From: Micropruina sonneratiae
GTDB lineage: Bacteria > Actinomycetota > Actinomycetes > Propionibacteriales > Propionibacteriaceae
Reading direction: 5' to 3'
NCBI RefSeq assembly: GCF_025972045.1
Contig: NZ_JAPDHX010000002.1
Span: 248,001-312,000 of the forward strand
Length of the DNA stretch: 64,000 nucleotides
Below, in pieces: positions 19,929 through 43,180 of this stretch. Position numbers and translations under genes: made by a program. Numbering within the stretch: position 1 is the first letter of the stretch; every line of letters starts with the position of its first letter. Below the pieces are notes generated by a model. That model was not told the DNA's origin, ran no database searches, and saw only the letters and a program-made list of their open reading frames with translations.

Positions 19929-20061
19929 GGCCAGACCCTACGGCGCCGCAGGTTCCGGCGGAACCCCGGGGCGGGTGGGGCCGCGGCAGGGGCTCGGCCG
20001 TGGATCGCCCGCGCCGGCCCCGCTTGGCGGCTCGGTCGCAGCTGTGGCGTCCAGGTCGGCG

Positions 20062-20529
20062 TCAGCCCAGGGCGCTCTTGACCAGCGCCGCCGCCGTCCG
20101 GCCGTCGCCACGTCCGGCGATGCGCGGGGTGACGCCCTTCATGACCTGGCCCATCTGCCGCATGGTGGGCTTCTCGCCGAGAGCCGACGCCACCGCGGCG
20201 ACCTCCTCCTCCACGATCGCGGCGATCTCGGCCTCGGTGAGCGGCTGGGGCAGGAACTCGGCCAGGATGCCCGCCTCGGCCAGCTCCTTCTCGGCCAGTT
20301 CGGGGCGGTGTCCGTCGGTGTAGGCCTGGGCGGAGTCCTTGCGCTTGGAGACCTCGCGGGCCAGCACCTGCTGCTCCTCGCCCTCGCTGAGCTCGCGCGC
20401 CGCCTTGCCGGCCACCTCCTCGTTGGCGATGGCGGCCAGCGCCATCCGCACCGTCGACTTGCGCGCCTCGTCGTGGGCCTTCATCGCCGCCACCAACTCG
20501 GTCTTCAGGCGGTCCTTGATCGCTGCCAT
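20062..20529 (-). CDS. GatB/YqeY domain-containing protein
   Basis: 155 residues, the normal YqeY length. MAAIKDRLKTELVAAMKAHD at the start, ISxRKDS-type segment (EVSKRKDSAQAYTDGHRPEL), ILAEFLPQPLTEAEI and the C-terminal MGQVMKGVTPRIAGRGDGR. The domain is shared with the tail of GatB, the amidotransferase acting on misacylated tRNA, but free YqeY function is unproven. A shorter divergent relative lies at 32246. Confidence 0.88.
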   Translation of the reverse strand: MAAIKDRLKTELVAAMKAHDEARKSTVRMALAAIANEEVAGKAARELSEGEEQQVLAREVSKRKDSAQAYTDGHRPELAEKELAEAGILAEFLPQPLTEAEIAAIVEEEVAAVASALGEKPTMRQMGQVMKGVTPRIAGRGDGRTAAALVKSALG

Positions 20530-20602
20530 GGGTGATCGTGTCCTTTCGTAACGGTTCATTGTCTCACCCACCGCCGACGGCCCCGCGCCTACACTTCCCG
20601 CG

Positions 20603-21166
20603 ATGACCACACGCCTGTTCGCCGCCGTCGTTCTGCCCGCCTCCGTGCTCGACGCGCTGGACGCCTTCGTCGAGCCACGCCGCGACGCCGACCCCGACCT
20701 GCGCTGGACGCCGCGCGACAACTGGCACCTGACGCTGGCGTTCTTCGGCGACGTCGCCGACGAGCGTGTCGAGCCGTTGCAGGAGGCCCTCGACGGCGTC
20801 CGGCTGGAGACCTTCCGGCTCACCCTGGACGGGTCCGGCGCCTTCCCCGACCCGGCGGCAGCCCGCGTCCTGTTCCACGCCGTCACCGACGGTGCGAGCG
20901 AACTGAGCAGGCTGGCCCGCCGGGTGCGGACGGCGGCCGATCGCGTGGGGGTGCCCTCCGACAACGCCAAGCACCGCCCCCACCTGACCCTGGCCCGGCG
21001 CCGTCGTCCGGGCCAACTGACCCGCTGGCTGCGCATCGTGGAGAGCTTCCCGGCCCAGGACTTCGACGTCTCCGGCTTCGCCCTGCTGGCCTCCGACCTG
21101 CGACCGGCCAGCCCGGTCCACCGGGTCGTCCACACCGTCCCCGCCCGCCCCCTGCCGCTCGCCTGA
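20603..21166 (+). CDS. thpR: RNA 2',3'-cyclic phosphodiesterase (2H family)
   Basis: 187 residues. Two HxTx motifs of the 2H phosphoesterase fold, HLTL in NWHLTLAFFGDV (near residue 43) and HLTL in HRPHLTLARRRR (near residue 132), with the spacing expected for ThpR/LigT. The family hydrolyses RNA 2',3'-cyclic phosphate ends. Divergent from the YqeY gene across about 73 bp. Start ATG 20603 directly precedes the first strand TRLFAAVVLP. Confidence 0.88.
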   Translation: MTTRLFAAVVLPASVLDALDAFVEPRRDADPDLRWTPRDNWHLTLAFFGDVADERVEPLQEALDGVRLETFRLTLDGSGAFPDPAAARVLFHAVTDGASELSRLARRVRTAADRVGVPSDNAKHRPHLTLARRRRPGQLTRWLRIVESFPAQDFDVSGFALLASDLRPASPVHRVVHTVPARPLPLA

Positions 21167-21259
21167 CGATTCGCCGAGCGTCCGGAGTGCGGGTGCTCAC
21201 CGACCACCGCAACGCCGTCGCTAGGCTGGCCGGGTTGTCCAACGAGGGGTGAGCCACCG

Positions 21260-22540
21260 ATGACCTACCAGCCCGAAACGCTGGCCGTCCACGCCGGCCA
21301 GGAGGACGCCGATCCGGCGACCAATGCCCGCGCCGTGCCGATCTACCAGACCACGTCGTACGTGTTCGACGACACCCAGCACGCGGCGGACCTGTTCGCG
21401 CTGAAGGTGCCCGGCAACATCTACACCCGCATCATGAACCCGACCCAAAACGTCTTCGAGGCCCGGATGACGGCGCTCGAGGGCGGCGTCGGCGCGCTCG
21501 CCACCAGCTCGGGAGCGGCGGCGATCACCTACGCGGTGCTCAACCTGACCTACGCCGGCGACAACATCGTCGCGCTGTCCACCCTGTACGGCGGCACCTA
21601 CGCCTTGTTCGCCCACACCCTGCCGCAGTTCGGCATCGAGGTGCGCTTCGTCGACCCGGAGAAGCCCGACGAACTCGCGCAGCACGTCGACGACAAGACC
21701 AAACTGGTGTTCGGCGAGACCGTCGGCAACCCGCTGGTCAACGTGGTCGACCTGGACGCCTGGTCGGCCGCCGCGCACAGCCTCGGCCTGCCGTTCATCG
21801 TCGACAACACCGTCCCCACCCCGTACCTGTGCCGGGTCTTCGACCACGGCGTCGACGTCGCGGTGCACTCGGCGACCAAGTACATCGGCGGTCACGGCAC
21901 CTCGGTCGGCGGCATCATCGTCGATTCCGGCACCTTCGACTGGACGGCACACGCCGACCGGTTCCCGGGCCTCACTCAGCCCGACCACGCCTATCACGAG
22001 GTGGTCTGGACCGAGGCGGTCGGCAACCTGGCCTACATCATCCGGGCCCGCACCGTGCTGCTGCGCAACACCGGGGCCGCGGTGACGCCGATGAACTCCT
22101 GGCTCTTCCTGCAGGGACTGGAGACACTGCACCTGCGGATGGAGCGGCACAGCAGCAACGCCCTGGAGGTGGCCCGCTACCTGGAGCAGCATCCGGCGGT
22201 GGCCTGGGTGAACTATCCGGGGCTGGAGTCCTCCCAGTGGCACGAGGCGGCGCAGCGCATCCTGCCCAAGGGTGCCGCCGGCATCGTGTCGTTCGGCCTG
22301 AAGGCGGGTCGCGAGGGCGGTTCGAAGCTGGTCGAGTCGTTGCAGTTGTTCAGCCACCTGGCCAACATCGGCGACGCCAAGTCGCTGGTCATCCACAACG
22401 CCTCGACCACCCACAGCCAGCTGACCGAGGACGAATTGAAGGCGGCCGGGGTGGCTCCCGAGATGGTCCGGCTCAGTGTCGGCATCGAGAACGTCGCCGA
22501 CCTGATCGCCGACCTGGACCAGGCGCTGGCCCAGTTCTGA
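21260..22540 (+). CDS. metY: O-acetylhomoserine sulfhydrylase (aminocarboxypropyltransferase)
   Basis: 426 residues. PLP enzyme making homocysteine from O-acetylhomoserine and sulfide. N-terminal ETLAVHAGQEDADPATNARA and PIYQTTSYVFDD are diagnostic of MetY; the PLP Lys lies in VHSATKYIGGHGTSVGG, and the C-terminus has HNASTTHSQLTEDEL and VRLSVGIEN. Preceded by GAGGGGTGAGC. It is followed 18 bp later by metX, whose product is its substrate. Confidence 0.93.
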   Translation: MTYQPETLAVHAGQEDADPATNARAVPIYQTTSYVFDDTQHAADLFALKVPGNIYTRIMNPTQNVFEARMTALEGGVGALATSSGAAAITYAVLNLTYAGDNIVALSTLYGGTYALFAHTLPQFGIEVRFVDPEKPDELAQHVDDKTKLVFGETVGNPLVNVVDLDAWSAAAHSLGLPFIVDNTVPTPYLCRVFDHGVDVAVHSATKYIGGHGTSVGGIIVDSGTFDWTAHADRFPGLTQPDHAYHEVVWTEAVGNLAYIIRARTVLLRNTGAAVTPMNSWLFLQGLETLHLRMERHSSNALEVARYLEQHPAVAWVNYPGLESSQWHEAAQRILPKGAAGIVSFGLKAGREGGSKLVESLQLFSHLANIGDAKSLVIHNASTTHSQLTEDELKAAGVAPEMVRLSVGIENVADLIADLDQALAQF

Positions 22541-22558
22541 CCCGGACGCCGCACCCGC

Positions 22559-23695
22559 ATGGCTGACACCACCCCGCTTGGCCTGGTCGAGACCCAGGTC
22601 GCGCGCCTGTTCACCGCGGACGACCCGCTGCGGCTGACCGGCGGCGCGACGCTGGGCCCGGTCGACGTGGCCTACGAGACCTACGGCACCTTGTCGCCCG
22701 ACCGGGACAACGCCGTATTCATCTGCCACGCGCTGACCGGGGACGCCCACGCCGCCGGCTTCCACGAGGGCGCGAAGCGACCGGGCTGGTGGGACAACCT
22801 GATCGGGCCGGGGCGTCCGCTCGACACCGACCGGTTCTTTGTGATCTGCGCGAACCTGATCGGGGGCTGCCAGGGCAGCACCGGGCCGTCGTCGATCGAC
22901 CCGGCCACCGGACGGGCCTACGGGCTCGACTTCCCGTTGCTCGACATGGCCGACTTCGTCGCCGTGCACCGCGCGCTGCTCGCCCATCTCGGCATCGACC
23001 GGTTGTTGGCAGCGCTGGGCGGGTCGCTGGGCGGCATGCAGGTGCTGGAGTGGGCGCTACGATACCCCGAGCAGCTGACCAGCGCGGCGGTGGTGGCGGC
23101 GTCGTCGCGGCTGACCGCGCAGAACATCGCCTTCTCGGCGGTGGCCAGGCGGGCCATCATGGACGACCCGGATTTCCGCGACGGACGCTACCTCGAGGCG
23201 GGCGTGGTGCCTCGGCTCGGGCTGCGGACCGCGCGGATGATGGCACACATCACCTACCTGTCCGAGGACGCCTTCAGCGAGAAGTTCGGCCGCACGCCGC
23301 ACCCGGACCGGGACAAGCCCGGTTTCGGCATCGATTTCGCGGTGGAGAGCTACCTGGATCACCAGGGCAGGGTGTTCCTGGAGCGCTTCGACGCCCTGTC
23401 GTACCTGTACCTGTCACGGGTGATGGACTACTTCGACCCGTTCAGCAGGCCGGACGCCGTGGCCGGCATCGCGGCGGACCCGGTGCGCTTCCTGGTGATG
23501 TCGTTCGACACCGACTGGCGGTTCAGCACCGACCATTCGCGGCGCATCGTCAAACACCTGGAGCACGCGCGACAGCCGGTCAGCTTCCGCGACATTCCGT
23601 CGCATTGGGGGCACGACTCGTTCCTGTTGCCCGTACCGCGCTACCACGACACGCTGCGCGCCTGGTTCGACCGGGCCTTGCGGGAGGGGCTGTGA
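22559..23695 (+). CDS. metX: Homoserine O-acetyltransferase
   Basis: 378 residues, alpha/beta hydrolase fold. Acetylates homoserine with acetyl-CoA. Nucleophile Ser in AALGGSLGGMQVLEW, catalytic Asp in MSFDTDWRFSTDHSR and His in IPSHWGHDSFLLP. ALTGDAHAAG and FFVICANLIGGCQGSTGP are family landmarks. The residue set fits the acetyl rather than succinyl branch by overall similarity, not by experiment. Middle gene of metY-metX-metW. Confidence 0.92.
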   Translation: MADTTPLGLVETQVARLFTADDPLRLTGGATLGPVDVAYETYGTLSPDRDNAVFICHALTGDAHAAGFHEGAKRPGWWDNLIGPGRPLDTDRFFVICANLIGGCQGSTGPSSIDPATGRAYGLDFPLLDMADFVAVHRALLAHLGIDRLLAALGGSLGGMQVLEWALRYPEQLTSAAVVAASSRLTAQNIAFSAVARRAIMDDPDFRDGRYLEAGVVPRLGLRTARMMAHITYLSEDAFSEKFGRTPHPDRDKPGFGIDFAVESYLDHQGRVFLERFDALSYLYLSRVMDYFDPFSRPDAVAGIAADPVRFLVMSFDTDWRFSTDHSRRIVKHLEHARQPVSFRDIPSHWGHDSFLLPVPRYHDTLRAWFDRALREGL

Positions 23696-23717
23696 TGAGC
23701 GGCGTTGCACCACCTGC

Positions 23718-23741
23718 CACCCCGGCGAACGCCGGGATCTC
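23718..23741. repeat. REP-like palindrome in the metX-metW gap
   Basis: CACCCCGGCGAACGCCGGGA followed by TCTC; the same unit as at 54026 (CCCGGCGAACGCCGGGATCTC identical). It lies between two genes that should be co-transcribed and may tune metW expression. Confidence 0.65.
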
Positions 23742-23774
23742 TTCACGCACCCGCGCGGCGGGGGAGCCGGTCCG

Positions 23775-24368
23775 GTGAGCCTGCGTCCCGACCTCGCCCT
23801 GATCGCCCACCTGGTGCCCAACGACACCCGGGTGCTCGACCTAGGCTGCGGCGACGGCACCCTGCTGGCGCACCTGATCGCCGAGCACGGCTGCGCCGGC
23901 ACCGGGGTCGAGATCGATCCCCAGAAGGTGTTGGCCGCGGTCGCGGCCGGCGTGCCGGTGATGGAGCTCGACCTGGATTCCGACCTGGAGCTGTTCGCGT
24001 CGGAGTCCTACGAGACGGTGGTGCTGTCGCGGACGGTGCAGACGCTGTTGCGGCCCAAGGTCGTGCTGCGCGAGATGGCGCGGATCAGCGGGCGGCTGAT
24101 CGTGTCGGTGCCGAACTTCGGCCTGCTGCAGCACCGGCTGAGGCTGCTGCGCGGCCGGATGCCGATGTCGAAGGAGCTGCCGCACTACTGGTACGAGACT
24201 CCGAACCTCCGGTTCACCACCCTCGTCGAGGTCGAGCAGCTGTTCGCCGAGCTCGGCCTGGTGATCGACCAGCGGATCAACCTGTCGCTGGCCGGCGAAC
24301 CCCTCGGCAAGCGCTTCCGGGCCGCGAACCTGCGCGCGGGGGCCGCGGTGTACGTGCTCAGCCGCTGA
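23775..24368 (+). CDS. metW: Methionine biosynthesis protein MetW (methyltransferase fold)
   Basis: 197 residues from GTG 23775. SAM-binding motif VLDLGCGDGTLLAHL at residues 20-34, then GVEIDPQKVLAAVAAGVPVM and the MetW signature ETVVLSRTVQTLLRPKVVLR and FGLLQHRLRLLRGRMP. In other bacteria MetW works with MetX in homoserine acylation and methionine synthesis. The 79-bp gap to metX holds a palindromic repeat. Confidence 0.9.
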   Translation: MSLRPDLALIAHLVPNDTRVLDLGCGDGTLLAHLIAEHGCAGTGVEIDPQKVLAAVAAGVPVMELDLDSDLELFASESYETVVLSRTVQTLLRPKVVLREMARISGRLIVSVPNFGLLQHRLRLLRGRMPMSKELPHYWYETPNLRFTTLVEVEQLFAELGLVIDQRINLSLAGEPLGKRFRAANLRAGAAVYVLSR

Positions 24369-24427
24369 CCGCCGCCCCGAGCTGCGACGCCACTCGTCAC
24401 CGGGGGTCTCCGACCAACTGCGGGGAA

Positions 24428-24456
24428 GGGATCCCGGCGTTCGCCGGGAGGACGGG
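24428..24456. repeat. REP-like palindrome after metW
   Basis: GGATCCCGGCGTTCGCCGGG and flanks, the reverse of the unit at 23718, between the convergent metW and HNH genes. It may serve as a bidirectional 3'-end hairpin. Confidence 0.6.
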
Positions 24457-24465
24457 CGCCGGCCG

Positions 24466-24906
24466 TCAGGCCACCATCAACTGCGACCTCGTCGGCGCGT
24501 ACGCCTTGAGTCGCAGCGGCATGCCGGCCTCGACCGGCGTCCGGTTCGCCTTGCGCGCATTGCAGACGTGACAAGCGGCGACGGTGTTCGTCCAGGTGTT
24601 GTTGCCGCCGCGCGAGATCGGCATGATGTGGTCGACCGTCGCGGCCCGTTCGCCGCAGTAGCCGCACGTGTGGGCGTCCCGCTTCAGCACTCCACGCTTG
24701 GTCCAGCCCGGCGTCCGGCTGTACAGGAACGTGGTCTTGACGTAGCGGACCAGCCGCAGCACCTCCGGCTGCGGAAAGGGTCCGAACAACAGGTCGGGGT
24801 GGGCGCTTTCGACCACGGCGACCTTGCGCAGCAGCATGCCGACCGCATGCTGCAACGACACCGTGTGCAGGGCTGTGTTGTCGGTGTTCAGGACGAGGAC
24901 GGCCAT
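24466..24906 (-). CDS. HNH endonuclease family protein
   Basis: 146 residues. The zinc-finger HNH core is at residues 80-125: CGYCGERAATVDHIMPISRG, then NNTWTNTVAACHVCNARKAN, giving two CxxC pairs and the DH catalytic pair. The N-terminus (VLVLNTDNTALHTVSLQHAV) is typical of a widespread actinobacterial group, often involved in DNA repair or of unknown role. Its ATG immediately follows the TGA of a 53-residue leader ORF (TGA-ATG), whose last codons supply the AGAAGGAG ribosome site. Confidence 0.88.
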   Translation of the reverse strand: MAVLVLNTDNTALHTVSLQHAVGMLLRKVAVVESAHPDLLFGPFPQPEVLRLVRYVKTTFLYSRTPGWTKRGVLKRDAHTCGYCGERAATVDHIMPISRGGNNTWTNTVAACHVCNARKANRTPVEAGMPLRLKAYAPTRSQLMVA

Positions 24907-25068
24907 TCAACGACTCCTTCTGGTGACAGCTGGCTGCTGCCGGCAAAAAGAAACCGCCCCGCACGAGCGCGGGACGGTGCCAACTCCTCCGACTGGTAGA
25001 GGGTTCTCAACCACGCTCACTATCCGCACGCCGGCGAGCGGCGCGACGTGGGTGCTCGTGCTGCTCAT
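24907..25068 (-). CDS. 53-residue leader ORF upstream of the HNH gene
   Basis: ATG 25068 with a clear CAAGGAG ribosome site, reading MSSTSTHVAPLAGVRIVSVV to a C-terminal RRSR and TGA at 24907-24909, directly abutting the HNH ATG. The composition (no hydrophobic core, four Cys/His only) does not suggest a folded enzyme. A strong intrinsic terminator is embedded inside it at 24945-24977, so translation of this ORF could decide whether transcription continues. I do not know the peptide. Confidence 0.6.
   Translation of the reverse strand: MSSTSTHVAPLAGVRIVSVVENPLPVGGVGTVPRSCGAVSFCRQQPAVTRRSR
24945..24977 (-). terminator. Intrinsic terminator inside the leader ORF (possible attenuator)
   Basis: Read on the reverse strand: CCGTCCCGC, loop GCTCGT, GCGGGGCGG (9-bp stem with one G-U), followed at once by TTTCTTTTT. 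This is the only hairpin in the window with a classical T-tract, and it lies within codons 31-42 of the 53-residue ORF, upstream of the HNH gene. Confidence 0.75.
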
Positions 25069-25181
25069 CGGAACTCCTTGGCTGAGGACGTTGCCAAGAC
25101 TAACCCCGCAATCGGCCTTTCCGGTTGCGACACGATGTCGGACACGTGTCACCGGCCCCGTGGGCGGGGGAGGGCCGCAGC

Positions 25182-26096
25182 CTATGCGTTGAGCGACAGC
25201 GCCTTCAGCAGGCGGTCGGCGGCCCCGCCGAGGTTGAGCAGTTCGGCGAGCTCGGCGAACATCTCGGGCTGGACGGGCTCGGTCGGCAGCCGCAGGTCGT
25301 CGAGGCTGACGCCCAGATCGAGGTCACGACGCACCGCCACCACCTCCCGGGCGGCGGCGAGGTAGTCGATGCCTGCGGTGAGCTTCGCGGTCAGCCCGGG
25401 GGAAAGCTTCCTCGCCGACGCCGCGGCGAGCACGCCTTCCAGGTCGCCGTGGTCGGCGATCAGCTTCGCCGCGGTCTTCTCGCCGATCCCCGCGACGCCG
25501 GGCAGGCCGTCGGAGGCGTCCCCCCGCAGCGTGGCGAAGTCGGCGTACCCGGCTCCGGTGATGCCGTACTTGGCCAGCAGCCAGTCGTCGGTCACCCGTT
25601 CGTGGTTGCGGACGCCCTTGACCACCGACAGCACCCGGACGCCGCGGGCGTCGTCGACCAGCTGGAACAGGTCGCGGTCGCCGGTGATCACGTCCACGGG
25701 TCCGGCCGCGGTGCTGGCCAGAGTGCCGATCACGTCGTCGGCCTCGTGGTCGGCGGCACCGACGATGGCGATGCCGACGGCGTCCAGCACGGCCCGGATC
25801 AGCGGCACCTGCGGCACCAGCTCGTCGGGCACCTGTTCGACGGCACCGTGCAGCACCCGGTGCGCCTTGTAGCTGGGCACCAGCTGCACCCGCCACGTGG
25901 GCCGCCAGTTGTCGTCCCAGCAGGCGGCGACGTGCGTGGGCCGGTACTCGGTCACGAACCGGGCGATGAAGTCGAGCAGCCCCCGCACGGCGTTGACGGG
26001 GCGTCCGTCAGCCCCGGTCAGCGAGGTCGGCAAACCGTAGAAAGCACGGAAGTAGAGCGATGCCGTGTCATAAAGTTGCAGAAACGGCCGGTTCAT
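25182..26096 (-). CDS. 5'-3' exonuclease (PolI N-terminal-like, stand-alone)
   Basis: 304 residues, matching the 5'-nuclease domain of DNA polymerase I without the polymerase. Acidic metal sites: LYDTASLYFRAFYGLP, CWDDNWRP, ADHEADDVIGTLA and VITGDRDLFQLV. The helix-3-turn-helix DNA-binding motif is GLPGVAGIGEKTAAKLI near residue 195. ATG 26096 is chosen because family members begin right before LQLYDT. Removes RNA primers or flaps. Divergent from an Lrp-type regulator. Confidence 0.9.
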   Translation of the reverse strand: MNRPFLQLYDTASLYFRAFYGLPTSLTGADGRPVNAVRGLLDFIARFVTEYRPTHVAACWDDNWRPTWRVQLVPSYKAHRVLHGAVEQVPDELVPQVPLIRAVLDAVGIAIVGAADHEADDVIGTLASTAAGPVDVITGDRDLFQLVDDARGVRVLSVVKGVRNHERVTDDWLLAKYGITGAGYADFATLRGDASDGLPGVAGIGEKTAAKLIADHGDLEGVLAAASARKLSPGLTAKLTAGIDYLAAAREVVAVRRDLDLGVSLDDLRLPTEPVQPEMFAELAELLNLGGAADRLLKALSLNA

Positions 26097-26121
26097 CCGC
26101 ACATAGTGACACGATTGAGCC

Positions 26122-26559
26122 ATGGAGAGTACGGATCGCCAGATTCTCACCCTGCTGTCCCGCGACGGTCGGATGTCCTACACCGACATCGGTCGGGAGA
26201 CCGGACTGTCGACGTCAGCGGCGCAGCAGCGGGTCCGGCGGCTCGAGCAGCGGGGCCTGATCACCGGGTATCGCGCCGAGATCAGTTCCGACGCCCTGGG
26301 ACTGCTGCTGACCGCGTTCATCTCCCTCAAGGCCTCCGATCCGGCCGTCGACGAACTCATCCCCGACAAGCTCGCGCAGATCCCGAACGTGGTCTCCTGC
26401 TACTCGGTGGCCGGCGAGGCCAGCCACCTGTGCATCGTGCAGGTCGAGAACCCGGGCGAACTGGAGGCGCTGCTGTCGCAGCTGCGGGTCGGTGTGGGGG
26501 TCCAGACCCTGACCACGCTGGTGCTGTCGGTCCCGTTCAAGGATCGCCCGGTCCTTTGA
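26122..26559 (+). CDS. Lrp/AsnC-family transcriptional regulator
   Basis: 145 residues. N-terminal HTH (TDRQILTLLSRDGRMSYTDI, then GRETGLSTSAAQQRVRRLEQ) and a C-terminal RAM domain (LLLTAFISLKAS ... VVSCYSVAGEASHLCIVQVE). Such regulators sense amino acids as octamers. The target is not obvious; the 25-bp gap to the divergent exonuclease leaves little room for a large operator. Confidence 0.88.
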   Translation: MESTDRQILTLLSRDGRMSYTDIGRETGLSTSAAQQRVRRLEQRGLITGYRAEISSDALGLLLTAFISLKASDPAVDELIPDKLAQIPNVVSCYSVAGEASHLCIVQVENPGELEALLSQLRVGVGVQTLTTLVLSVPFKDRPVL

Positions 26560-26621
26560 GGCGGACCGCGGCGGGCCGGTCTCCGGCGGGGACGACCTCG
26601 AGCGCTGGGTAGCATCCCTTC

Positions 26622-28226
26622 GTGATCGACCGCGTGCGTGCCGTGCCCTGGTGGGCCCGGGCCCTGCTGGGGCTGGCGGTCGGCGCCGCCGGCGGAATGG
26701 CCTTCATGGTGGGGTCGTGGGCGCTGACGATCGGCTGCGTCGCCGCGCTCAGCATGCTGGTCCTGCCCGCCCCGAGTTGGTGGCAGGCGGCGCTCACCGG
26801 GTTCTGCTTCGGTCTCACCCAGTACCTGCTGGGCGTCACCTGGCTGAGCGTCATCTTCGTCGAGGCGCTGTTCGGACTGGCCGCACTCGAGGCCTGCTTC
26901 AGCGCGCTGCTGGCGGTGCTGCTGCGCTGGTCGGGCCGGACGCCGTGGTGGCCGCCCCTGGCGGCCGGCTGCTGGCTGGCCGTGGAGTACGCCTTCTCCC
27001 ACTTTCCCTTCGAAGGCTTCCCCTGGCTGCGGTTGGGCTACTTGAGCGTCGACTCCCCACTGGCCGGCCTGTTGCCGCTCGTGGGCGTCCCCGGTGCGAC
27101 GTTCGCCCTCGCCCTGGCCGGACAGTTCGTGGCCTGGGCCGTGCTGGTCGGCGACGGTCCCACACAGTGGGTGCGCGGGTTGGCGGGCGTGGTGGCGGTG
27201 CTGTGCACCGGCCTGCTGGGCCTGCTGGTGCCGGCCGGGGCCGAGACGGGCAGCGTCAGCGTGGGCTACGTGCAGGGCAACGCACCGGGCGGCGGCATCT
27301 ACGGGCTGGGGGAGGCTCGCACCATCACCCGCAACCACGTCGCCGAGACCCAACGCCTCGCCGGACGGATCGAGTCCGGTGAGCTGCCGCGGCCAGACTT
27401 CGTGGTGTGGCCGGAGAACGGCACCGACATGGACCCGTTCGCCGACGCCCAGACCAACGCCCTGGTGAAGCAGGCGGTGGCCGCGGTCGGCGTCCCGGTG
27501 CTGATCGGCACCATCACCGACGGTCCGGGGGTCGACGAGCGGCAGACCGCGGCGATCGTGTGGGATCCTGCCACCGGCGCCCAGGCCCGCTACGACAAGC
27601 GCAACCTGGTGCCGTTCGGCGAGTGGGTGCCGCTGCGCAGCATCCTGGAGCCACTGTTCCCGGTGGTGCGCTACGTCGGCGCCCAGTCCGTCCCGGGCAC
27701 CGGCCCGGGCGTGCTGCCGATCGACCTGGGCGAGCGAGTGGTCACCGTCGGGGACCTGATCTGCTACGAGGTGGCCTACGACGCCACCGTGCACGACACC
27801 GTCCGCGCGGGCGCCCAACTCAGCGTGGTGCAGAGCAGCAACGCGATGTACGTGGGGACGGGACAGGTGGCGCAACAGTTCCGGATCACCCGGGCCAGGG
27901 CCGCCGAACTGCGCCGCGACATCCTGGTGGTCACCACCACCGGCACCTCGGGCCTGATCCGCCCCGACGGCAGTGTCGCCTTCACCCTGCCGGAGTTCGA
28001 AGCGGCGTCCGGGGTGGTGGAGTTGCCGCTGCGCAGCGGCCTGACGCCCGCGGTGCTCGTCTCGGGCTGGCTGGAACTCGCCGGCATCGCCGTCACCGTG
28101 CTGGGGCTCGCCGTGGTGTTGTGGCGACGCCGGGGAGACACAGCCGGCGCACAACCGGCGCAGGGCCACCACTCCGGGCGGGTGCGGCAGAATGGACAAT
28201 CGGAAGCGAACCAGGAGACCCAGTGA
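26622..28226 (+). CDS. lnt: Apolipoprotein N-acyltransferase
   Basis: 534 residues from GTG 26622. About six to eight N-terminal membrane helices, then a periplasm-side nitrilase domain with the catalytic triad: Glu in FVVWPENGTDMDP, Lys in RYDKRNLVPFGEWVPLR, and Cys in GDLICYEVAYD. Adds the third acyl chain to lipoproteins; several lipoproteins are encoded in this window. Overlaps the next gene by GTGA, the same lnt-ppm coupling known from mycobacteria, where the two may be fused. Confidence 0.92.
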   Translation: MIDRVRAVPWWARALLGLAVGAAGGMAFMVGSWALTIGCVAALSMLVLPAPSWWQAALTGFCFGLTQYLLGVTWLSVIFVEALFGLAALEACFSALLAVLLRWSGRTPWWPPLAAGCWLAVEYAFSHFPFEGFPWLRLGYLSVDSPLAGLLPLVGVPGATFALALAGQFVAWAVLVGDGPTQWVRGLAGVVAVLCTGLLGLLVPAGAETGSVSVGYVQGNAPGGGIYGLGEARTITRNHVAETQRLAGRIESGELPRPDFVVWPENGTDMDPFADAQTNALVKQAVAAVGVPVLIGTITDGPGVDERQTAAIVWDPATGAQARYDKRNLVPFGEWVPLRSILEPLFPVVRYVGAQSVPGTGPGVLPIDLGERVVTVGDLICYEVAYDATVHDTVRAGAQLSVVQSSNAMYVGTGQVAQQFRITRARAAELRRDILVVTTTGTSGLIRPDGSVAFTLPEFEAASGVVELPLRSGLTPAVLVSGWLELAGIAVTVLGLAVVLWRRRGDTAGAQPAQGHHSGRVRQNGQSEANQETQ

Positions 28227-29029
28227 CCACTCCAGAGCTCGGTAAGGTGCTCGTCATCATCCCGACCTACAACGAGGCCGACAACATCACCCCGATCGTG
28301 CAGCGGTTGCGGGTGGCGGTTCCGGACGCCGACGTGTTGATCGCCGACGACAACTCGCCGGACGGCACCGGCCGGATCGCCGACGAACTGGCCGCGGACG
28401 ACGACCAGGTGCACGTCATGCACCGGGAGGCCAAGCAGGGCCTGGGCGCGACCTACGTGGCCGGCTTCCGCTGGGGTCTCGAACGCGGCTACGGCGTCCT
28501 GGTCGAGCACGACGCGGACGGCTCGCACCAACCCGAGCAGTTGCCCAGCATGCTGGCCGCGCTCGAGAACGCGGACATGGTCAAGGGCTCGCGGTGGGTC
28601 AAGGGCGGCTCGGTGGTGAACTGGCCGTGGCATCGCAAGCTGCTGTCGCAGGGCGGCTCGCTGTGGTCGCGGACGATCCTCGGCCTGCCGATCAAGGACG
28701 TCACCGGCGGCTTCACCGCCTTCCGTGCCGACACCCTGCGCGGCATCGGCCTGGACGACATCGAGTCCGCCGGCTACGCCTTCCAGGTCGACCTGGCGCG
28801 GCGGGCCATCGCCAAGGGCTACCGGGTGGCCGAGGTGCCGATCGAGTTCATCGAGCGTGAGCGGGGCGACTCCAAGATGAGCGGCAACATCGTGGCCGAG
28901 GCCATGCTGTTGACCACCCGCTGGGGCGTCACGCACCGCGTCGACCAGGTCAAGCAGTGGCTGGGCATGGACCGCGGCCGGGCGCCCGAACCGGCCGCCG
29001 TCCGAACCGACCAGGACGCCGCGAAGTGA
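28223..29029 (+). CDS. Polyprenol monophosphomannose synthase (Ppm1-like GT2)
   Basis: 268 residues from GTG 28223. GT2 dolichol-phosphate-mannose synthase type: VLVIIPTYNEADNI at the start, VLIADDNSPDGTG, and the catalytic HDADGSHQPEQLP. VTGGFTAFR and FQVDLARRA match bacterial Ppm. No membrane domain of its own, consistent with partnering with Lnt encoded immediately upstream. Supplies lipid-linked mannose for cell-envelope glycolipids and glycoproteins. Confidence 0.92.
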   Translation: MTTPELGKVLVIIPTYNEADNITPIVQRLRVAVPDADVLIADDNSPDGTGRIADELAADDDQVHVMHREAKQGLGATYVAGFRWGLERGYGVLVEHDADGSHQPEQLPSMLAALENADMVKGSRWVKGGSVVNWPWHRKLLSQGGSLWSRTILGLPIKDVTGGFTAFRADTLRGIGLDDIESAGYAFQVDLARRAIAKGYRVAEVPIEFIERERGDSKMSGNIVAEAMLLTTRWGVTHRVDQVKQWLGMDRGRAPEPAAVRTDQDAAK

Positions 29030-29622
29030 CCACGCCGCAGCGCCCCTACCAGGCCTCGGGAGCCCAGCCGGGCTCGCCGGCGACGCGGGGCCGCCGGCCG
29101 TGGCTGGCGCCGCTGGTGCTGCTCACCTTTCTGCTGGTGCCCATCGTGGAGGTGTGGCTGATCGTCAGCGTCGGCAACTGGATCGGCGCGCTGCCCACCA
29201 TCGCCATCCTGGTCGGCGAGGCCGTTCTCGGCGCCTGGCTGATGCGTCGCGAGGGCGCCAAGGCGTGGCGGGCGCTGAACCAGTCGGTCGCCTCGGGCAA
29301 ACTGCCCGGCGGAGAGCTGCTCGACCCCGTGCTGATCGTGGTCGGCGGCATCCTGGTGATGCTGCCCGGCTTCTTCACCGACATCTTCGGCCTGGTCTTC
29401 CTGCTGCCGTTCACCCGGCCGCTGGCCCGCGGTCTGCTGCAGTTGTTCATCACCCGCCGCGCCGCCCGGTCGGGCATCAACATCGACGTGATGCGGGCCC
29501 GGGTCGACCGCGAGAACATCGTCGAGGGCGACACCGTGCCCGATCCCGCGCCGAAGGCCGCGGACCAGCCGCGCCAGCGGCCGTCCGACCCGATGGTGAT
29601 CAAGGGCGAAATCGAACCCTGA
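29026..29622 (+). CDS. FxsA-family membrane protein
   Basis: 198 residues from GTG 29026 (GTGA overlap with the mannosyltransferase). A basic N-terminal tail, then FxsA helices: LLTFLLVPIVEVWLIVSVGN, LPTIAILVGEAVLGAWLM, and the family landmark LDPVLIVVGGILVMLPGFFT. The C-terminal 55 residues are charged and Pro-rich. FxsA proteins affect phage exclusion in E. coli; role here unknown. Third gene of lnt-ppm-fxsA. Confidence 0.88.
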   Translation: MTTPQRPYQASGAQPGSPATRGRRPWLAPLVLLTFLLVPIVEVWLIVSVGNWIGALPTIAILVGEAVLGAWLMRREGAKAWRALNQSVASGKLPGGELLDPVLIVVGGILVMLPGFFTDIFGLVFLLPFTRPLARGLLQLFITRRAARSGINIDVMRARVDRENIVEGDTVPDPAPKAADQPRQRPSDPMVIKGEIEP

Positions 29623-29629
29623 CGTGGCG

Positions 29630-29658
29630 GAGATCCGGGCGTCCTCCGGGATGACGAG
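29630..29658. repeat. REP-like palindrome between fxsA and rbpA
   Basis: AGATCCGGGCGTCCTCCGGG followed by ATGACGAGA; same family as at 4951-5088 and 54067. Located between the convergent 3' ends, so it probably forms the shared hairpin. Confidence 0.6.
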
Positions 29659-29667
29659 AGACGGGGC

Positions 29668-30000
29668 TCAGTCTGTACCGCGGATCTCGTCCAGGCGTTC
29701 GGCCAGCAGATCCTCGAGCTCCTCGATGGAGCGGCGCTCGCGCAGCATGTCCCAGTGGGTGCGCGGCGGCTTGACCTCTTTGGCCTCGGGTTCGACGCCG
29801 TCCGAACGGCGCGCCACGGCGCCGCAGCGCGGGCACTCCCACTCGGTCGGCAGGTCCGCCTCCTCGGCGAACGTGACGCTGAAATGGTGTCCCTTGGGGC
29901 AGTCGAAGCCGACGTCCTGACGGGCCGCGAACTCGACTCCGGAACCGTCGGCGAAGCTCTTCGAACCCAGTCCGGAACCTCGCAGCGATCGCTCAGCCAT
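29668..30000 (-). CDS. rbpA: RNA polymerase-binding protein RbpA
   Basis: 110 residues, ATG 30000. Actinobacteria-specific transcription factor binding RNA polymerase and the principal sigma factor. N-terminal tail, then the core with CPKGHHF and ECPRCG (zinc-ligand positions), the basic linker after SDGVEPEAKEVKPPRTHWDM, and the sigma-interacting helix RRSIEELEDLLAERLDEIR. Strong taxonomic marker. Promoter and control not evident. Confidence 0.93.
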   Translation of the reverse strand: MAERSLRGSGLGSKSFADGSGVEFAARQDVGFDCPKGHHFSVTFAEEADLPTEWECPRCGAVARRSDGVEPEAKEVKPPRTHWDMLRERRSIEELEDLLAERLDEIRGTD

Positions 30001-32717: not shown

Positions 32718-33572
32718 GTGACAACCATCCTGTCGATCCAGTCCTCCGTCGCCTACGGCCACGTCGGGAACAGTGCGGCCACCTTCCCGCTGATGCGCTC
32801 CGGGGTCGAGGTCTGGCCGGTGCTGACGGTGCACTTCTCGAACCACACCGGCTACGGCGAGTGGCGCGGGCCGCTGCTGGCGGCGTCCGACGTGGCCGAC
32901 GTCATCCGTGGCATCGACGAGCGGGGCGTGCTGGGCAGGGTGGACGCCGTGCTCTCCGGCTACCAGGGGGCCGAGGAGGTGGGCGCCGTCGTGCTGGACG
33001 CCGTGGCGCTGGTCAAGCAGCGCAGCCCCCGGGCCGTCTACTGCTGCGACCCGGTGATGGGCGACGTGGGCCGGGGCTTCTTCGTCCGGCCCGGCATTCC
33101 CGAGTTCATGCGTGACCAGGTGGTGCCGCAGGCGCAGATCGTCACCCCCAACCACTTCGAACTGGACTTCCTCACCGGCCGCGAGACGCACACGCTCGAC
33201 GAGGTGATCGACGCCGCCCACGCCCTGCGCGCGGTGGGCCCCGAGACGGTGCTGGTCACCTCCGTGGTCACCGCCGCCACGGCCGAGGACGAACTGACGA
33301 TGCTGGCCGTGACCGGTGACGGCGCCTGGCAAGTGACCACGCCCCGGCTGGACCGCACCTTCACCGGCTCGGGCGACCTGACCGCAGCCATGTTCCTGAG
33401 CCATTGGCTGGCGACGGAGTCGGCCGAGAAGGCCGTCGGCGCCACCGCCGACGTCGTTTATTCGGTGCTCAAGCAGACCGCCGATTCGGGGCTGCCGGAG
33501 TTGCAGCTGGTGGCGGCCCAGGACGAGATCGTCGCACCCACGTACCACTTCGACGTGAGCCGGGTCCGCTGA
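32718..33572 (+). CDS. pdxY: Pyridoxal kinase (PdxY/PdxK type)
   Basis: 284 residues from GTG 32718. Ribokinase fold; phosphorylates pyridoxal in B6 salvage. ILSIQSSVAYGHVGNSAATF is the diagnostic N-terminus, followed by TVHFSNHTGYGEWRG, YCCDPVMGD and TPNHFELDFLTG. The anion-hole motif reads FTGSGDLTAAMF where GTGDLF is usual; the catalytic Asp is kept. Convergent with the MurA-like gene. Confidence 0.9.
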   Translation: MTTILSIQSSVAYGHVGNSAATFPLMRSGVEVWPVLTVHFSNHTGYGEWRGPLLAASDVADVIRGIDERGVLGRVDAVLSGYQGAEEVGAVVLDAVALVKQRSPRAVYCCDPVMGDVGRGFFVRPGIPEFMRDQVVPQAQIVTPNHFELDFLTGRETHTLDEVIDAAHALRAVGPETVLVTSVVTAATAEDELTMLAVTGDGAWQVTTPRLDRTFTGSGDLTAAMFLSHWLATESAEKAVGATADVVYSVLKQTADSGLPELQLVAAQDEIVAPTYHFDVSRVR

Positions 33573-41299: not shown

Positions 41300-43180
41300 G
41301 TGAGCAACGGCTGGCAGGTCATGAACTCGATGACCCGCGACGCGTCCGTCCGCAGTCACCAGTTGGCTCCGGGGACGCGCCGGCGGGTGATGTCGTACGC
41401 GGCCGCCTACAAGGGCTACATCGCGATCTTCCTGGGCCTCACCGTGCTCGACTCGTTGCTGGTGGTCGCCTCGCCGCTGCTTCTGCAACGGCTGGTCGAC
41501 GACGGGGTGATTCCCGGTGACGCGGGCCTGGTCGTCCAGTTGGCGATCCTCGTCGCGCTGCTCGCCCTGGCCGATGCCGCGTTGACCCTGGTCGAACGGT
41601 GGTTCTCCAGCCGGATCGGTGAAGGCCTCATCTACGACCTGCGCACCGAGGTGTTCAGCCACGTGCTGCGCCAGCCGATCGCGTTCTTCACCCGCGCCCA
41701 GACCGGCGCCCTGGTCACCCGGCTGAACAGTGACGTCATCGGCGCGCAACAGGCGTTCACGTCGGTGCTGCAGAACCTCGTCGGCAACGCGATCAGCCTG
41801 GTCGTCATCGTCGTGGCGATGGCGTCGCTGTCGTGGCAACTGACGGTCGGCGCCTTCCTGCTCGTCCCGCTCTTCCTGATCCCCGCCCGGGTCATCGGCC
41901 GCAGACTCGCCGGCCTGACCCGCGACCAGATGGTGCTGAACGCCGACATGGGCGCCCAGATGAGCGAACGATTCAACGTGGCTGGAGCCCTGCTCGTGAA
42001 GCTGTTCGGTGACCCCGGGCGCGAAGATGCCGAGTACGCCACCCATGCGAGGGGCGTCCGCGATGTCGGGGTACAGCTGGCCGTGAACCGGTCGGTCTTC
42101 TTCGTCGCCCTGGGCCTGGTGGCCTCACTGGCGACCGCCATGATCTACGGCTTCGGTGGCGTGATGGCGGTCAACGGCACCCTCACGGTGGGCACCCTGC
42201 TGGCCCTCGCCGCGCTGCTGGCCCGGTTGTACGCCCCGCTGACCGCACTGTCCAACGTCAGGGTCGACGTGATGACCGCCCTGGTCTCGTTCGAACGCGT
42301 GTTCGAAGTGCTCGACCTGCAGCCGCTGGTTTCCGAGAAGCCCGACGCCGTGACGATCCCCGACCGCCCGGTGGGTCTCGAGGTCGATCACGTCAGCTTC
42401 CGCTACCCGTCGGCCGACGAGATCTCGCTGGCCTCGCTCGAGGGCAACGCCACCGGTGACCGGCTCGGCAGCGGCGACATCCTGCACGACCTGTCGTTCC
42501 GGGTACCCCCCGGCACGATGCTGGCCCTGGTCGGCCCGAGCGGGGCCGGGAAGACCACCATCACGTCGCTGGTGGCCCGGTTGTACGACCCGACCTCGGG
42601 TTCGATCCGGGTGAACGGCCTCGACCTGCGTGATGCCACCCTGGCGTCGCTGCGCGACCGGATCGGCGTGGTCACCCAGGAGGCGCATCTCTTCCACGAC
42701 ACGCTCCGGGCGAATCTGCTGTACGCCAAGCCAGACGCGAGCGAGGCAGAACTCGAGGCGGTGCTGCGGGCAGCCCAGGTCTGGAATCTGGTGGAGTCGC
42801 TGCCCGAGCGTCTCGACACGGTGGTCGGCGACCGGGGTCATCGGCTGTCCGGCGGCGAGAAGCAGCGGTTCGCCATCGCCCGGTTGCTGCTGAAGTCGCC
42901 CGGCCTGCTGGTGCTCGACGAGGCCACCGCGCACCTCGACAGCGAGAGCGAGGCGGCCGTGCAGCGCGCCCTGGAGGCCGCTCTGGCCGACCGGACGTCG
43001 ATCGTCATCGCGCACCGCCTCTCAACGGTGCGCGGCGCCGACCAGATCCTGGTGATCGAGGGCGGCCGGGTCGCCGAACGCGGTACTCACGTCGAGCTGC
43101 TCGCCCGCGGCGGCCTGTACGCCGACCTCTACCACACCCAGTTCGCCGACCAGGCCGGCAGCGACTCGCACCCTGCCTGA
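41300..43180 (+). CDS. ABC exporter, fused permease and ATPase
   Basis: 626 residues from GTG 41300; ATG 41321 is an alternative. Type-IV exporter half-transporter: six N-terminal helices, FFTRAQTGALVTRLNSDVIG after helix 2, then the nucleotide-binding domain with Walker A GPSGAGKTT, signature HRLSGGEKQRFAIARLLL, Walker B LLVLDEATAHLDSES and switch His in VIAHRLSTV. Works as a homodimer or with an unlinked partner; exports lipid, peptide or drug. No regulator is adjacent. Confidence 0.88.
   Translation: MSNGWQVMNSMTRDASVRSHQLAPGTRRRVMSYAAAYKGYIAIFLGLTVLDSLLVVASPLLLQRLVDDGVIPGDAGLVVQLAILVALLALADAALTLVERWFSSRIGEGLIYDLRTEVFSHVLRQPIAFFTRAQTGALVTRLNSDVIGAQQAFTSVLQNLVGNAISLVVIVVAMASLSWQLTVGAFLLVPLFLIPARVIGRRLAGLTRDQMVLNADMGAQMSERFNVAGALLVKLFGDPGREDAEYATHARGVRDVGVQLAVNRSVFFVALGLVASLATAMIYGFGGVMAVNGTLTVGTLLALAALLARLYAPLTALSNVRVDVMTALVSFERVFEVLDLQPLVSEKPDAVTIPDRPVGLEVDHVSFRYPSADEISLASLEGNATGDRLGSGDILHDLSFRVPPGTMLALVGPSGAGKTTITSLVARLYDPTSGSIRVNGLDLRDATLASLRDRIGVVTQEAHLFHDTLRANLLYAKPDASEAELEAVLRAAQVWNLVESLPERLDTVVGDRGHRLSGGEKQRFAIARLLLKSPGLLVLDEATAHLDSESEAAVQRALEAALADRTSIVIAHRLSTVRGADQILVIEGGRVAERGTHVELLARGGLYADLYHTQFADQAGSDSHPA

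Follow-up and report, generated by a model that had tools for sequence, protein, structure and literature searches.

On the reverse strand of the window (the whole 64-kb stretch of DNA that was analysed, part of a genome of 3.5 Mb), a gene encoding an HNH endonuclease is directly preceded by a short leader ORF, inside which lie a rare isoleucine codon, a rare leucine codon and a hairpin followed by a T-tract (Table 1). An earlier reading of this locus, made from the sequence alone, had described the leader as an ORF of 53 codons that follows a good ribosome site and whose stop codon abuts the ATG of the nuclease gene, and this description is confirmed. A -10-like hexamer found by eye upstream of the leader ATG is probably the promoter of a common leader-HNH transcript, and the leader is therefore probably part of the nuclease message. 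Similar TA(C/G)(T/G)CT hexamers, also recognized by eye, precede the leaders of several relatives, and a scan of positions 20000-30000 for the sigma-70 consensus returned zero sites.

Table 1. Features of the leader-HNH locus (window coordinates).
Feature	Position	Strand	Remarks
-10-like hexamer TAGTCT	25097..25102	-	identified by eye; 29 nt 5' of leader ATG; probable promoter
Shine-Dalgarno AAGGAG of leader ORF	25074..25079	-	upstream of leader ATG
Leader ORF, 53 codons plus stop	24907..25068	-	ATG 25068-25066; spans terminator, ends at HNH start
In-frame AUA (Ile), leader codon 16	25021..25023	-	42 nt 5' of extended stem; proposed pause or control codon
Rare CUA (Leu), leader codon 24	24997..24999	-	in CTACCAGT; 18 nt 5' of extended stem
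Candidate intrinsic terminator hairpin	24953..24978	-	11 pairs, 8 of them G-C, loop of 4; conserved in alignments A1 and A2
Terminator T-tract TTCTTTTT	24945..24952	-	directly 3' of stem, inside leader ORF
Shine-Dalgarno AAGGAG of HNH gene	24914..24919	-	within leader ORF
Leader stop TGA	24909-24907	-	immediately 5' of HNH ATG 24906-24904
HNH endonuclease gene, 146 aa	24466..24906	-	Pfam HNH and HNH_5; member of tRNA-array family; proposed controlled gene

The nuclease matches the phage protein family phrog_16726 over nearly its full length (residues 2-144, 8.3e-27), and models of defence systems gave weak matches to the HNH domain only, the best being PtuB (1.5e-7). Its nearest relatives that carry a name are from Micropruina. 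It also aligns, over 93-99% of the length, with HNH proteins or HNH-like stretches of four tRNA arrays (H6, H27, H31 and H46). HNH genes within tRNA arrays are already known (PMC5966550, PMC12803027, PMC9569102, in excerpt). By this near full-length relationship the protein belongs to the tRNA-array family, but its gene does not sit among tRNA genes, of which the 64-kb window contains zero. Relatives do so in 18 of the 30 Micromonosporaceae loci that were fetched (L142-L147, L149, L151-L154, L156, L157, L160-L163 and L165, with HNH at about 1501-1917), where they adjoin or lie inside the arrays, often beside tRNA-Gly. In five of eight plasmid or phage loci (L171, L173, L174, L175 and L177), tRNA genes lie no more than about 300 nt from the match, and these five include arrays of 27 predicted tRNAs on one Mycolicibacterium plasmid and one Nostoc plasmid. 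L170 has a single tRNA gene, some 700 nt upstream, whereas L172 and L176 lack any. An HNH protein encoded before a tRNA array on a Nostoc plasmid is 36% identical to that of the window. The Pseudarthrobacter plasmid pACHL01 (L171:2302-2495) offers a minimal tRNA-HNH pair, with a tRNA-Gln(TTG) about 120 nt before the HNH gene.

The hairpin had been called the only terminator of the window. It is indeed the sole one with a stem longer than 8 bp, although a scan of the whole window also returned two weaker, terminator-like 8-bp hairpins, at 33434-33453 and 42076-42096, both on the forward strand. Taken alone, it is at the level of chance: ten shuffles of the window produced ten hairpin-plus-T sites in total, about one per shuffle, with a longest stem of 12. 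It is for its conservation, not for the hairpin itself, that we believe the terminator to be real. Five leader peptides matched no NCBIfam family at E up to 10, Rfam gave nothing over its gathering threshold for 24300-25400 (two weak matches scored 19.1 bits against a threshold of 55 and 12.9 against 40), and the fold energy of the whole leader is ordinary (z -0.95). The whole-leader fold had first suggested a Shine-Dalgarno trap in which the T-tract would pair with the HNH ribosome site, but this pairing does not exceed that of shuffles and the idea was dropped.

Conservation of the leader in Propionibacteriaceae

Conservation was assessed in a sample of 198 Propionibacteriaceae genomes, 36 of which have an HNH orthologue of at least 63% identity. 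Upstream DNA was inspected for 34 of these 36 (G526 and G097 were left out, and L025 provides only 92 nt). The sequence-only reading had held that orthologues devoid of both leader and hairpin would count against it. In the upstream regions, a leader ORF with a terminator just before HNH was found to be kept in 21 of the 36 orthologues, and such a layout was not seen in the 13 other orthologues inspected. Two hallmarks of ribosome-mediated attenuators are thereby present, namely a short ORF with a ribosome site conserved before the target gene and an intrinsic terminator conserved in place between the start of the leader and the target. A ribosome site was detected by script in 19 of the 21 leaders (none was found in L004 and L016, whose leader starts were set by hand), and the end of the hairpin lies 31-89 nt before the first matched HNH codon in the 20 leaders measured by script, the terminator script having missed L011, which was placed by hand, as well as the Micromonosporaceae locus L059. 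In a tree of HNH proteins with 96 hand-chosen and labelled rows, a selection rather than all loci, the 21 leader rows group together beside 14 leaderless rows (support 86/89, not firm).

What the terminator originally served is a matter in which the neighbouring gene has a say. In 17 of the 21 leader loci, the DNA upstream of HNH carries, in the same orientation, a relative of the 5'-3' exonuclease gene of the window, and no such relative was found upstream of HNH in any of 13 distinct leaderless loci (among L022-L030, L166-L169 and L050, with L025 left out). This co-occurrence keeps alive the idea that the hairpin originated as the terminator of the exonuclease gene, and it lowers the weight of an attenuator while raising that of an alternative in which the hairpin is simply the 3' terminator of this upstream gene, the ORF is a frame left open by chance in a GC-rich genome and the nuclease is expressed from a promoter of its own or by leak-through. 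Long chance ORFs are common in the window, the hairpin alone is near chance and the promoter candidate of the leader was found by eye only, all of which would suit such a scenario. Nevertheless, leader and terminator persist in four loci in which no exonuclease gene was found in the available upstream sequence: L010 and L013 have it downstream of HNH instead, in the opposite orientation, and no relative was found in the available sequence around L004 (L033, 3 kb either side) or upstream of L015. The short distance between hairpin and HNH in the 20 measured leaders also argues against it, as do the conserved AUA, the coupling of leader stop to HNH start and a pattern of variation mostly at third codon positions in one group of leaders (see below). 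Overall, this explanation seems to us unlikely.

The leaders were split into two types, A and B, by the string GACGGNTGT, and ATA was counted afterwards. GACGGNTGT is present in 11/11 type-A leaders, in which CGACGG-N-TGT is invariant (11/11) and falls mostly within a peptide like LRRRTIDGC. The ten type-B rows, among them the window and five that are close relatives of each other, are without CGACGG-N-TGT and have GATA in 10/10. The two types also differ in where translation would end. In type A, the stop codon lies 21-46 nt 5' of the stem in 9/11 leaders. Eleven leaders pass through the terminator instead, and 10 of these 11 end 0 to +13 nt from the HNH start: three exactly at it (TGA-ATG), five with a stop that overlaps the start codon (ATGA; in L009 GTGA or TGATG, according to which start is chosen) and two 13 nt past it. 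The read-through leader of L007 shows no coupling to HNH, and the L021 leader ends 2 nt into the stem. In eight type-A rows, a block of nine codons displays 28, 13 and 77 pairwise differences at codon positions 1, 2 and 3, an excess at the third position that is expected of a translated frame. The corresponding differences among five Micropruina leaders are 16, 16 and 25, where the excess is weak. Control by cysteine, an idea prompted by the DGC of type-A leaders, was rejected, the window leader having no Cys before its terminator.

A covariance model (R1) was built from 11 other leaders, all of type A, and 20 candidates out of some thousand were scored per genome. In the window's genome, the HNH leader alone is matched at E <= 0.05 (E 9.8e-4). 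The best match of R1 falls exactly at the HNH leader in 8/10 type-B genomes (G028 and G016 were missed), and at the same threshold it finds no leader in the 12 that were searched of the 13 leaderless orthologues. However, weak matches down to 9.0e-4 also occur in 17 genomes outside the leader group, so that the E-value proves little by itself, and the alignments indicate that the score comes mostly from the terminator. Judged on sequence, types A and B are linked by their agreement in place and not by the E-value of R1.

Several other upstream regions of HNH genes have features of their own. Micromonosporaceae orthologues without nearby tRNAs (L090/L136, L137, L053, L059 and L155) display a leader-like ORF in the upstream 230 nt (e.g. 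..HVTTVPS..GG.RAE.P..GRPD), together with a terminator that the script finds in L053, L090 and L137, not in L059, and that was recognized by eye in L155; this arrangement is possibly an independent attenuator. A distant HNH paralogue in the Propionibacteriaceae genus g9 (L071, L073) is likewise preceded, within 200 nt, by a short ORF and a terminator, with different peptides. In a leaderless sister group (L023, L024, L026, L027, L029, L030, L044, L046 and L166), a common ATAATC stretch in the upstream 150 nt is mostly followed by a TGAC(A/G)-like -35 and then a GCAC(C/T)C-like -10, an arrangement that we take to be, perhaps, an activator-dependent promoter of the WhiB7 type; the excerpts of the papers found contain nothing on WhiB7 control of this group. 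Finally, a second Micropruina HNH paralogue (L083) has tandem GGAAATGGGACGGAAAGAACCGTCCCTCCGTACC-like units in the upstream 150 nt, and the leaderless orthologue L022 has tandem GAGCCGACAAGGCCAGTCTTC-like repeats directly 5' of the HNH start, within the upstream 120 nt.

Rare codons and competition for the terminator arm

All type-B leaders contain a codon that their genomes hardly use. Exactly one ATA is present within 150 nt before the stem, at a distance of 40-60 nt, in 10/10 type-B leaders, and in 10/10 it lies in the leader frame. By comparison, ATA accounts for 0/16,453 codons in the window (47 long ORFs), for 8/34,798 in a larger sample of the window's genome and for 51/104,456 in samples from 8/10 type-B genomes, the last being restricted to ORFs with GC-rich third positions, which lowers the background of rare codons. 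Against this background, the 309 type-B leader codons that precede the stems contain 10 ATA, 6 CTA and 1 TTA, where 0.15, 0.33 and 0.04 would be expected. CTA occurs in L001-L005, close Micropruina leaders in which CTACCA is fixed while the following Val codon takes four forms, and TTA in L007 of the same genus. A ribosome-mediated attenuator would have its control codons, or a site of pausing, at a constant position ahead of the terminator, and the AUA stands at such a position, the pause itself being putative. Since the sole ATA within 150 nt is in frame in all ten leaders, a role as a codon is favoured over a GATA motif acting as RNA, which is nevertheless conceivable.

AUA is decoded by the scarce tRNA-Ile2 (CAU), whose specificity is made by TilS. 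TilS is encoded in the window's genome, and three tRNA genes with the anticodon CAT, each Met or Ile2, are present among 30 examined of 44 tRNA loci. In a model study of E. coli, AUA was very slow and sequences bearing it were highly sensitive to tRNA supply (PMC3783181, in excerpt). Rare codons could also act in a simpler way. The terminator might be a fixed brake that constitutively lowers the expression of a potentially harmful nuclease, with the leader setting a constant read-through and the rare codons its level. No signal for regulation by the leader is shown here, and codon optimisation of the B. subtilis leader bmrB altered basal expression while leaving fold regulation unchanged (PMC4191407, in excerpt), both of which would be in accord with a brake. 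Such a brake would, however, need neither the in-frame AUA, similarly spaced in 10/10 type-B leaders, nor GACGGNTGT in 11/11 type-A leaders, and we regard it as very unlikely.

How a pausing ribosome might affect the terminator was approached by computing, as a function of where free RNA starts, the share of the 5' arm of the terminator that upstream RNA occupies while the 3' arm has yet to be made; as controls for the groups, the 80 nt preceding the stem were shuffled 60 times. With a ribosome paused at the AUA of the window leader, competing pairing is 0.05, vs 0.38 in shuffles. If AUA occupied the A site of a ribosome, RNA would be left free from 26-31 nt in 7/10 type-B rows (from 34 nt in L020, 36 in L009 and 46 in L005), and for RNA that is free from 25-30 nt the arm pairing of the type-B group is 0.22 vs 0.48 and 0.51 in shuffles (z -4.3 and -4.5). 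Row by row, pairing under the AUA ribosome is clearly reduced in three leaders, L001, L020 and L021, each of which is equalled or exceeded by at least 97 of 100 shuffles; it is at the shuffle mean in L004 and above it in L005 and L007. A ribosome at AUA favours termination in the window leader and in the type-B group, then, but not in every member. Apart from L005 and L007, a classical antiterminator that would turn the gene on when the ribosome is stalled at AUA is contradicted for type B as a group (z -4.5 at 30 nt). When no ribosome is present (60-80 nt), arm binding in type B is no better than in shuffles (z +0.5 to +0.9), so that in the window's subtype the switch would have to rely on melting of the hairpin by the ribosome alone. 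Type A (10 rows, without L011) behaves differently, with low pairing at 35-40 nt (z -3.1 and -3.4) and high pairing at 60-80 nt (z +2.6 to +3.5), the latter owing to a predicted antiterminator in which GACGG pairs with CCGTC of the terminator arm. Together with stop codons 21-46 nt before the stem, this antiterminator points to an opposite logic in these relatives, and type A is likely to have the sign of bmrB, slow translation raising read-through.

Could the window leader work in this way too? Slow or stalled leader ribosomes would then allow an antiterminator to form, and the nuclease would be turned on under translational stress, for example by antibiotics. The type-A antiterminator lends itself to this view, and so does bmrB, whose leader is also of 53 residues, with a terminator in the coding region and rare codons, and in which lincomycin and rare codons raise read-through while an untranslated leader gives less (PMC4191407, in excerpt). 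In Anabaena, the trn tRNA operon and the HNH gene all8564 are both up under chloramphenicol (PMC10272220, in excerpt). The low competing pairing under an AUA ribosome argues against this sign for the window leader, whose passage through the terminator and coupling to HNH suit ribosome melting instead; stalling upstream of the AUA would still be compatible with it. We consider this second option rather improbable for the window, though one to be kept in mind. The sequence-only reading had proposed that moving ribosomes melt the hairpin and that slow translation stops transcription. Folding and coupling favour that direction, opposite to bmrB, for the window's subtype with moderate confidence; they fall short of proving it, and the direction is the reverse in bmrB and likely so in type A.

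A proposed ribosome-controlled attenuator and its known counterparts

The interpretation that we prefer, with a probability of about one half (0.52), is that the 5' leader of this chromosomal HNH gene is a ribosome-controlled transcription attenuator in which AUA is the pause site and a pause turns the gene off. RNA polymerase would start at about 25090 and transcribe the leader ORF, the second half of which holds the putative terminator. A ribosome following close behind, once past the rare AUA (and CUA), would reach the terminator, block its folding and end at the TGA beside the HNH ATG, from where it could start on the nuclease in a stop-start hand-over. A ribosome paused at AUA, 42 nt upstream, would leave the terminator free while covering leader RNA that might compete for it, so that transcription would end and the nuclease would be off. 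Expression of HNH would thus be set by the speed of AUA decoding or by the general flow of ribosomes. The anatomy of the locus, the conservation of leader and terminator position, the enrichment of AUA and the stop-start coupling were observed directly and support the earlier proposal of translation-controlled attenuation in part. Translation of the ORF, termination at the hairpin, the pause at AUA and the direction of control are inferences, and the window's subtype has no antiterminator above chance.

Ribosome-mediated attenuation is already known, leader-peptide attenuation being a classical mechanism in the control of amino acid and drug resistance genes. An HNH nuclease as its target and gating by a single AUA appear to be new: in the open-licence literature, searched mainly at the level of titles, neither HNH as an attenuation target nor a single conserved AUA gate was found. 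The sequence-only reading had stated that such control of an actinobacterial HNH gene was not known to it. A single, nearly unused codon held in place across genera would be a clean bacterial example of rare-codon gating. A leader switch of this kind would also link the HNH genes that are found, puzzlingly, in tRNA arrays with the translational state of the cell, making the question of when they are expressed a testable one. A more far-reaching and quite doubtful extension is that the AUA is a gauge, releasing the nuclease when AUA decoding suddenly improves or collapses, i.e. a codon-based alarm for invading DNA. It might be triggered by the arrival of a phage or plasmid tRNA array, or by AUA-rich foreign messages that drain the tRNA. 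If true, the window would harbour a domesticated chromosomal member of the tRNA-array nuclease family that is expressed only when the cell's supply of tRNA permits.

Among known systems, the tRNA-array HNH endonucleases (PMC5966550, PMC12803027, PMC9569102, in excerpt) are of the same protein family by sequence, but the copy in the window stands alone, behind a leader of its own. The table of the TrcR regulon of Anabaena lists two HNH genes, and all8564, which from its context would belong to the HNH family of the window, is >8-fold up without TrcR (excerpts of PMC10272220). HNH genes there belong to the same regulon as a tRNA array responsive to translational stress; however, control is exerted by a repressor, TrcR, and kasugamycin gave no relief, which sets this system apart from the window leader. 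The uORF of the E. coli toxin-antitoxin locus topAI-yjhQ is likewise a leader ORF, one that responds to ribosome stalling and governs the production of a protein with harmful potential (PMC12121999, in excerpt); gene and organism differ from those of the window. Actinobacterial amino acid attenuators (PMC1262725, in excerpt), the main text of which does not contain the word HNH, resemble the window in having a short ORF followed or overlapped by a terminator, and ilv leaders overlap candidate terminators too. They repeat the codons for the pathway's own amino acid, whereas the window leader has one AUA and one CUA before its terminator and precedes an HNH gene that is not biosynthetic. The likeness to bmrB/bmrCD of B. 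subtilis (PMC4191407, in excerpt) is the most detailed, since to the shared leader length and the terminator inside the leader can be added a target gene immediately downstream and the placement of rare codons upstream of the terminator. We also count as a likeness the ribosome acting as sensor and the need for leader translation, both of which are proposed for the window leader. The low read-through of an untranslated bmrB leader is what the preferred interpretation would predict as well. The differences concern the target, an ABC drug exporter in one case and an HNH nuclease in the other; the key rare codon, which in the window is a single conserved AUA; and the direction of control, slow translation raising read-through with the help of a predicted antiterminator in bmrB, whereas the window's subtype has none above chance and probably relies on a moving ribosome to keep the gene on.
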